From positions 90,402-154,401 of the forward strand of contig JANXWV010000135.1 in assembly GCA_025350965.1 (NCBI GenBank): 64,000 nt of DNA. The letters run 5' to 3'. The translations under genes and the position numbers were made by a program. This document shows, piece after piece, positions 56,459-61,903 of the stretch. The first letter of the stretch is position 1; each line of letters opens with the position of its first letter. The notes beneath the pieces were generated by a model, which was not told the origin of the DNA, did not search any database, and was given only the letters and a program-made list of their open reading frames with translations. The stretch is from Rhizobacter sp. (GTDB lineage: Bacteria; Pseudomonadota; Gammaproteobacteria; Burkholderiales; Burkholderiaceae_C).

Positions 56459-59400
56459 TTACGGTTTCGACGCGGAATGCCCCCGCTCTTCCGCGAGCGC
56501 GCGTTCCAGGCGCGCGCACAGCGACGGGCGCAGTTCGCCGGCGGTCATGAGGGCATCGAGCGACCCCACATAGAGCGCCCGTGCCACGTTGTGCACGGCA
56601 TCGAACTCGCGTGCCACTTCGGTCTGCACTCTTGCCGTGACATCAGCCAGCACACTCTCGTAGTGTTCTTCGGCTCTACGGCGATCGTCGAGCCTGGCAT
56701 CGGCGAGCGCTTGGCGCGCCGCCTGTGCGTGCGGGTCAGCCTGCGCCCTTTCGCGGACCAGACGAGTGAACACGACGGCCGCAGCTGCGCCGCCTCCGAT
56801 CACGCTCGCATAGCTGCCTTCGAGCGCCACGGCATCGAGGCGGCTCGACAGCCGGCGCGAGAACACGACGTAAGCACCCCCGTGGTAGCGCGCGACGACG
56901 CAGAACAGGATCGGCCCGTCGAACTCGACCACGGCCTTGCCGATCTCGGCGCCGAATTCGAGCTGGCGCTCGCGCATCGATTCCGGCGAGCCGTCGAAGC
57001 CTGACAGATTGGCCAGCACGACGACCGGGCACAGGCCGTTGACCGAACGAATGGCCCGCGCGATCTTGCGCGACGAATGCGGGAACAGCGTGCCACTCAT
57101 CCAGCTCGCCGGCCCGTCGACCGGGCGCGGCCCGCGCCGCGGCAGCGGTTGCGACTCGATGCCGATCAAGCACACCGGATTGCCGCCGAGCTGCCCGTGC
57201 ATCACCACGGCGGTTTCACCGCCGGCAAGCCCTTTCCAGCGCTCGAGCGGCGGGGCGTCCTGGTCGAGAACGGCGGTCATCACCTCGCGGATCGCGAACG
57301 GCTTCTTGCGCCCGGGGTTGGCGCTTTCGGAAAACAGCTCCCCGACCGTGGTGAAGCCTCCGGCGCCGGCGTACGCGGCGTTGGTGACGTCACGCTCGAC
57401 AGGGTCGGTGCTGGGCCGCCGACGCGCCCGCCGCTCGCCCGGCGCGACATAGGTGTACTCGCAGTGGCGCAGCAGCAGTTCGTAGGCGCTCTTCAGGTCG
57501 GGCGCGCTGTACTGCGCCTGGCCGTTGCCGGTCATGATCTCGAGCCCGCCGATGGCTTCGTTGGTCTCTGCCGCGACCGATCCGGACACCTCGAGAGCGC
57601 GCTTGCCCGTGAGCACCATGTAGCCACGCGGCGTCATGACCAGCGTGCCGCGGCAATGCATCAGCATCGTTGCTTCGGCGTTCCAGTACGACTGCGCGCC
57701 CACACACGGCCCGTCGACCAGAACGTTGATCACGCCGCCGGCTTCGGTGAACTCGACGATGCGGCGCAGCACCGCGGCGGTCCAGTCGAGGTTTTCAGTA
57801 CCGGAGTCGAATGCGATCCGCGCGCCGCCGGACAGCGCGACCCATTCGACAGGCACGCCCAGCTTCTCGGCATGGTCGAGCGCGGCGATGATCCGCCGGC
57901 ATTCGCCTTCGCCGAGTGAGCCCATGTCCTTGTTGGGGTCGCCGAGCAGCAGCACGCGGCTGAAGCCGTCCGGAAAGCGTTCGGACCAGTTCGTGATCAG
58001 CCCGACCACCACACCGGTCGGGTTGCTGGCGGCCGGGCGGCCTCGCACCGATTCCAGCACCTGGCCCTGGGCGTCGAGTTCCAGTTCATCGAATTGCCCG
58101 CGCTCGATCCGGCCGATGTCTTCGCGGGACGTGAGCCAGCTCACCACCTCGTAGGGGTGGAACAAGCGCCGCCGCCGTGCGGCCAGCACCTGCTGCTCGT
58201 AGGCCGACATGACCGGGACCAGGCGTTGCCTTGGCAGCACCACCTCGAGCCGGGGCCCGAGAGCTGTCGCGTCGCGCCATTCGGCGGCCAGCTCGCGTGG
58301 CGGCGCCGAGTCGCCGAGCGTGAAGCGGCCATGCATCGCCACCTTGTGCAGCGCCAGGTCGAAGGTCGCCGGGCCGAGCCGTCGGGCCAGTGCGTCGAGC
58401 TCGCTGCGTGCAAGCGCAATCGTCGGCCGCATGAAGAGCGAGATCCGGTTGAACGCCGGTGGTCTGCCGGTTGCAGCACGCACGCCTTCACGCAGGGCCT
58501 GCACGGCGTTGAGGAAGACTCTTTCAAAACTGGGAACCCGGACGAAGTCGCCATCGAACACCGGGTCGAAGCGCTCGACTTCGGCCATCACGATCAACCT
58601 GTCTTCGCCTGTGGCGATGGCGCGCAGCAGCAGCAACCCTGCCGGAGCGGGCAGCCGCTCGAGCTTGAACTGGGCAAACCGGGCAACTTCCTGTGCGACC
58701 GGGCGTGCCGGATGGACATCGCGCAGCAGCGTCTGCTCGGCCATCGCGTCGCCCGAGTTCACCCAGCTGCGGATACGAAGCTCGCCGCCCTCGACCCACA
58801 GCGCCGTCCAGCGCGAACGCTGAATGCGTGCCGCCGCGTCGAAGGCGTCGACGGCAGGGACGTAGGCCAGCAGCAGGTCCGCCTCTGCATCGGCCGGCAG
58901 CAAGGCCAGAACCTCCGCCAGATCGCAGGGGGCGTTCAGCAACGCTCCGACCACCTGCGTGCCAGCAGTGGTTCGCAGCCGCTGGCAGGGATGGCGCCCC
59001 TTCAGGGCGGCAGTGTCTTCGACCAACTCTGCTGCGCGCACTTCATAGATCCGGGCGAGCAACTGCCGCAGAAGGAGGGCCGGATCGCGACGGCCAGCCG
59101 GCCCGGCGGAGGCCGGAACGAGTGAGCTTGCGAGCGCACCGAACGGCAAGGCCTGCAAGGCCGCCTCGGCGGCGGTACGCCCATCTTGCAACTGCGCAGC
59201 AGCCAGGTCATCCCAGCACCGGTCGGCATCGATGGCGGCCTGCGCCACGTCTGCCTGCCACTCGGGCAGATCCTGCCAATAGTGGATCAGGTTCCAGGCC
59301 GCCGTGGCGACCTGCAGGTCACCGCGCTGCACCGCTTCGCTGGCGAGCTTTTCGAACACCACGCGCTGCTCAAGCGCCGACGGCGACACTTCGGACTCCG

Positions 59401-61903: not shown

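Follow-up and report, generated by a model that had tools for sequence, protein, structure and literature searches.

Bacteria of the Burkholderiales type normally use a four-subunit acetyl-CoA carboxylase (ACC). Single-chain bacterial ACCs were first characterised in actinobacteria, where the SACE_4237 protein from Saccharopolyspora erythraea is active as a homodimer and groups with eukaryotic ACC (Livieri et al. 2019, PMC6491548). SACE_4237 carboxylates acetyl-CoA and propionyl-CoA (kcat/Km of 0.85 and 0.52, respectively), does not accept palmitoyl-CoA, and rescues an E. coli accB mutant by complementation; the demonstrated role of the family in Saccharopolyspora is fatty-acid synthesis (PMC6491548). 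The long-chain acyl-CoA carboxylase (LCC) is likewise a bacterial single-chain enzyme, with an N-terminal carboxyltransferase (CT), C-terminal biotin carboxylase (BC) and biotinyl (BCCP) domains, no central region, a hexameric assembly and long-chain substrates (PMC6491548).

A 2022 survey already placed the 3-hydroxypropionate bi-cycle, together with predicted photosynthesis, in Burkholderiales MAGs (PMC9802188), and the presence of the bi-cycle in phototrophic Burkholderiales is therefore not new. The portion of the survey consulted names no single-chain ACC (PMC9802188). While the multidomain ACC family and the bi-cycle in these phototrophs have been published separately, a search of the open-access literature, with subscription papers and supplements outside it, returned no report of the two in combination, nor of a multidomain ACC in Proteobacteria.

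Domain architecture and family of the acc product

The window, by which we mean the whole 64,000-nucleotide stretch analysed, carries the following features around acc:

56393..56415, minus strand: terminator-like hairpin 3' of acc (one found against 0.4 expected, near chance)
56459..61903, minus strand: acc, 1814-aa single-chain multidomain acetyl/acyl-CoA carboxylase (ORF calling, Pfam, orthologues L052, L053, L054 and L117)
56498..58009, minus strand: CT domain, residues 1299-1802 (Pfam Carboxyl_trans, E 2.8e-36; best PDB matches are eukaryotic ACC CT)
58034..59899, minus strand: central region, residues 669-1290, ~620 aa (profile searches)
59912..60085, minus strand: biotinyl (BCCP) domain, residues 607-664 (Pfam Biotin_lipoyl, E 6e-13)
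60011..60013, minus strand: biotin-acceptor lysine codon, Lys631 in EAMKM (motif position)
60134..60508, minus strand: BC-BCCP linker, residues 466-590, probably BT-like (position, actinobacterial linker profile)
60524..61885, minus strand: BC domain, residues 7-460 (Pfam and motif positions)
61904..61911, minus strand: intergenic spacer of 8 bases, from the mcr stop codon to the acc ATG (sequence)
61912..64000, minus strand: C-terminal half of bifunctional malonyl-CoA reductase, mcr (PDB 6k8s, E 3e-288), open at the window and contig end

The acc reading frame begins with an ATG at 61903 and continues for 1814 codons without a break to a stop codon ending at 56459, confirming an ORF that the original prediction, made from the sequence alone, had delimited without assigning it to the minus strand. 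Pfam resolved the BC domain into Biotin_carb_N (residues 7-127), CPSase_L_D2 (132-339, E 1.4e-60) and Biotin_carb_C (352-460), with the GDKIAAK, KATAGGGGRG, RHVEVQ, EMNTRLQVEH and EARLNAED motifs all kept, and recovered the mid-protein biotinyl and C-terminal CT domains in the order first proposed; the biotin lysine codon had also been placed exactly and corresponds to residue 631. The product is one ~200 kDa-class polypeptide with BC, BCCP, central and CT regions in that order, as in multidomain ACCs, and not a heteromeric AccABCD enzyme of separate chains, given all domains lie on one chain. The original prediction was thus right about the enzyme class, its resemblance in design to eukaryotic ACC and its difference from AccABCD. 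Nor is acc a chance ORF, since full-length orthologues with roughly 83-91% identity occur in four further species (L052, L053, L054 and L117).

Four actinobacterial proteins (from Nonomuraea, Embleya, Gordonia polyisoprenivorans and Tsukamurella tyrosinosolvens) align with the acc product end to end at 38-42% overall identity, with about 50% in BC, 31-38% in BCCP, 21-33% in the central region and 54-60% in CT; these four stand for the SACE_4237 type, SACE_4237 itself lying outside the alignment and being likened by description. In a PDB search with a CT profile, twenty eukaryotic ACC sequences scored 92-72 bits, whereas no bacterial beta subunit exceeded 57 bits. Trees were computed from proteobacterial, actinobacterial and same-genome carboxylases, with eukaryotic sequences left out and some branches long. 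In the CT tree, the five proteobacterial and actinobacterial multidomain CTs stood together, apart from three same-genome CTs (support 100/100), and the BC tree likewise grouped the five proteobacterial and actinobacterial sequences apart from the genome's other carboxylases (support 100/100). The CT domain phylogeny, in this tree free of eukaryotic sequences, therefore sets the acc CT with the actinobacterial multidomain CTs.

By these comparisons, acc is assigned to the known homodimeric multidomain ACC family of the SACE_4237 type. With SACE_4237 and its actinobacterial orthologues it shares the BC-BCCP-central-CT order, a length of about 1800 residues and a CT in the eukaryotic ACC group; however, the actinobacterial relatives carry an ESMKM or ESMKL biotin motif in place of EAMKM and lie near lipid or polyketide genes, whereas acc is linked to mcr and the propionyl-CoA synthase gene (pcs) in a betaproteobacterial lineage. 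Eukaryotic ACCs (human ACC1/ACC2, yeast and other fungal Acc1) share the domain order and CT similarity, but their solved chains reach about 2200-2400 residues compared with 1814, and, unlike theirs, the acc central region is too divergent for Pfam ACC_central.

The central region

The region between the biotinyl and CT domains had been described as poorly recognisable, which holds for the acc sequence taken alone but not once the actinobacterial relatives are added. Pfam returned no domain in residues ~670-1290 up to E=10, the central region alone had no PDB match at E<=10, and a profile from four proteobacterial central regions found nothing in the PDB. The actinobacterial members, on the other hand, match Pfam ACC_central (PF08326; E 6e-11 to 6e-16), and an actinobacterial-only profile of the C-terminal part matches the acc protein with an E of 2.7e-29 (best of 999 shuffles, 0.07), while that of the N-terminal part gives a weak match (E 2e-5; best shuffle, 0.0037). 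With a joint eight-sequence profile, the only PDB matches at E<=1 were eleven eukaryotic ACC sequences. Since the single-sequence and proteobacteria-only searches were empty and the actinobacterial and joint profiles matched, the homology is limited to the C-terminal part and runs through intermediates: via the actinobacterial proteins, these profiles support homology of that part to the eukaryotic ACC central domain, and point only weakly to homology of the N-terminal part. A profile of the actinobacterial linkers picks up the BC-BCCP linker at E 3e-6 (compared with shuffled controls), and a weak ACCA_BT match was seen in one relative only (L047). Structure prediction from four sequences gave a mean pLDDT of 43.9 for the central region and 37.1 for the central region plus CT.

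Bacterial multidomain ACCs bear on the origin of eukaryotic ACC, and the published bacterial examples found are actinobacterial; the divergent proteobacterial group would add an independent branch to this question.

Gene neighbourhood, host genome and distribution

Directly upstream of acc lies mcr, overlooked by the original prediction though it offers the best evidence for the substrate and role of acc. The partial ORF matches the C-terminal half of the Porphyrobacter dokdonensis malonyl-CoA reductase (6k8s), and the 8-base gap makes co-transcription of mcr and acc probable, while the hairpin beyond acc weakly suggests that acc is the last gene of the cluster. The window ends at position 64000, also the end of contig C39, inside mcr, where 81 identical bases overlap contig C141 (L095 12104-12184). 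The assembly break falls inside the operon, with mcr split over two contigs and its N-terminal half on C141; the gene is a single intact ORF in L052-L054.

Contig C141 further carries an 1892-aa ORF with AMP-binding, enoyl-CoA hydratase and ADH-type domains, assigned as pcs by its domain architecture, as well as genes for a MaoC-type hydratase, a CitE-like lyase and two family III CoA-transferases, one of which matches TIGR04253 (2-methylfumaryl-CoA isomerase) over its full length (E 2e-210; 698.8 bits against a 725-bit cut-off). We annotate mcr, pcs and the glyoxylate-salvage genes on C39/C141 as genes of a 3-hydroxypropionate bi-cycle cluster on the basis of these matches. The bi-cycle of Chloroflexus and that of the Burkholderiales MAGs (PMC9802188) likewise include genes for malonyl-CoA reductase, propionyl-CoA synthase and glyoxylate salvage; in contrast to the single chain of this cluster, Chloroflexus has a heteromeric ACC (PMC11077971).

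The host genome (G000) is fragmented (155 contigs, 87.7% complete), with acc on a 154-kb contig beside ordinary genes. Reaction-centre genes of the pufL and pufM type on contig C117 (L096 4335-6217) make an anoxygenic phototrophic lifestyle probable. No RuBisCO match was obtained in the 87.7% complete assembly, and AccA was not found in this incomplete genome. The genome does hold an AccD-size CT, a PccB-like CT and other carboxylase genes; on contig C35, the PccB-like CT and a biotin carboxylase plus biotinyl stretch lie a few kb apart and likely represent a dedicated propionyl-CoA carboxylase. Canonical AccA is present, encoded separately, in three operon-bearing sister genomes (L052, L053 and L054), which, together with these further carboxylases of G000, identifies the fused enzyme as an additional one.

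A scan of the genome collection with malonyl-CoA reductase yielded 31 loci in alpha- and betaproteobacteria. In three of them, L052 and L054 (both Burkholderiales MAGs) and L053 (an Aquabacterium MAG), acc directly follows mcr in a pcs-mcr-acc order and its product is 85-90% identical to the window protein. The mcr-acc gap is about 8 bases in L052 and L053 and about 243 bases in L054 (12065-12307). The fused ACC was found in five Burkholderiales genomes only, all with malonyl-CoA reductase, and the pcs-mcr-acc order in four of the five, the window genome included. Whole-genome searches of 31 mcr-bearing genomes added one carrier to the three above, the Burkholderiaceae MAG Prado198, and left 27 without the fused ACC; the enzyme is therefore dispensable for the pathway. 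Among the mcr loci lacking a fused ACC are L083 (G753) and the alphaproteobacterial L062-L081; in L062 and L083 an ORF of ~1830 aa, the size of a propionyl-CoA synthase, precedes mcr.

In a sample of about 428 relatives and members of the class, only G000 had a fused ACC, and a search of 60 relatives gave short CT matches only, which were taken as ordinary carboxyltransferases. The resulting contrast (4/30 mcr-bearing genomes versus 0/428; p about 1.5e-5, hardly changed with 31 genomes) is no more than indicative, as the samples are unmatched by lineage and the comparison leaves out the mcr status of the 428. In Prado198 (G813; L064 and L117), acc is 91% identical to that of the window but sits on a different contig from mcr, which is only 67% identical to the window mcr; this is a hint of independent movement of acc, by separate transfer or rearrangement, or of a mixed bin. 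Over the 110 bases preceding acc, L054 and the unlinked L117 copy are 80% identical.

Proposed role and alternatives

Given its domains, orthology, operon order and co-occurrence with mcr, we consider it quite probable that acc encodes a eukaryote-type multidomain ACC serving as the malonyl-CoA-forming enzyme of the 3-hydroxypropionate pathway in this phototrophic member of the Burkholderiales; most likely, malonyl-CoA reductase receives its substrate from this enzyme, for CO2 (co-)assimilation. By analogy with characterised ACCs, the BC domain would carboxylate the biotin on Lys631 with ATP and bicarbonate, the biotinyl domain would swing to the C-terminal CT domain, and the latter would transfer CO2 to acetyl-CoA, giving malonyl-CoA, with the central region acting as a scaffold and the chain forming a homodimer as in SACE_4237. 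The neighbouring malonyl-CoA reductase would then convert malonyl-CoA to 3-hydroxypropionate, and propionyl-CoA synthase would convert this to propionyl-CoA. The activity, substrate and oligomeric state of the enzyme, the flux through it and its contribution to CO2 assimilation are predictions. We also lean, with less confidence, towards the view that phototrophic Burkholderiales recruited a eukaryote-type single-chain ACC to serve the bi-cycle specifically as its carbon-fixing carboxylase, with the canonical four-subunit ACC kept for lipids.

ACC is a known bottleneck in 3-hydroxypropionate production, and the proposed role, if true, would make available for that purpose a useful acetyl-CoA carboxylase that is encoded by a single gene and occurs in nature together with malonyl-CoA reductase, as well as a variant CO2-assimilation pathway in phototrophic bacteria with no detected RuBisCO.

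Family membership does not fix the substrate, as known relatives also carboxylate propionyl-CoA. An enzyme serving both acetyl-CoA and propionyl-CoA carboxylation is a tenable though less favoured possibility: the bi-cycle needs both steps and SACE_4237 is similarly efficient on the two substrates (PMC6491548), but the C35 genes, with their PccB-like CT and biotin carboxylase plus biotinyl stretch, likely already provide a dedicated propionyl-CoA carboxylase.

That acc is a housekeeping or secondary-metabolite ACC, making malonyl-CoA for lipids or polyketides and standing beside mcr by chance, appears unlikely. The fatty-acid role of the family in Saccharopolyspora (PMC6491548) would suit it, as would the Tsukamurella relative, which on plasmid 10 of T. 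tyrosinosolvens (L050 1-11100) directly follows type I polyketide synthase and holo-ACP synthase genes; yet the pcs-mcr-acc order is conserved in four species, the sister genomes keep canonical AccA, and, among the genomes searched, the fused ACC occurs only in those bearing mcr.

The original prediction had mentioned LCC and would have counted against its own reading a CT that falls inside some common single-chain family of bacteria tied to a substrate other than acetyl-CoA. Only half of this applies: the family is indeed a known bacterial single-chain one, but it is the acetyl-/propionyl-CoA type of Saccharopolyspora and not LCC. Although LCC is also a single chain, its domain order is the opposite of that of acc, in which CT is C-terminal, it has no counterpart of the central region, and the closest acc relatives are of the multidomain ACC type, which makes an LCC-type enzyme very improbable. 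Despite the fragmented assembly, an assembly or binning artefact is barely conceivable given the ordinary genes around acc on its 154-kb contig, and a misplaced actinobacterial contig is excluded by four independently assembled Burkholderiales genomes, whose proteins form an 83-91%-identical group with only 38-42% identity to the actinobacterial ones.
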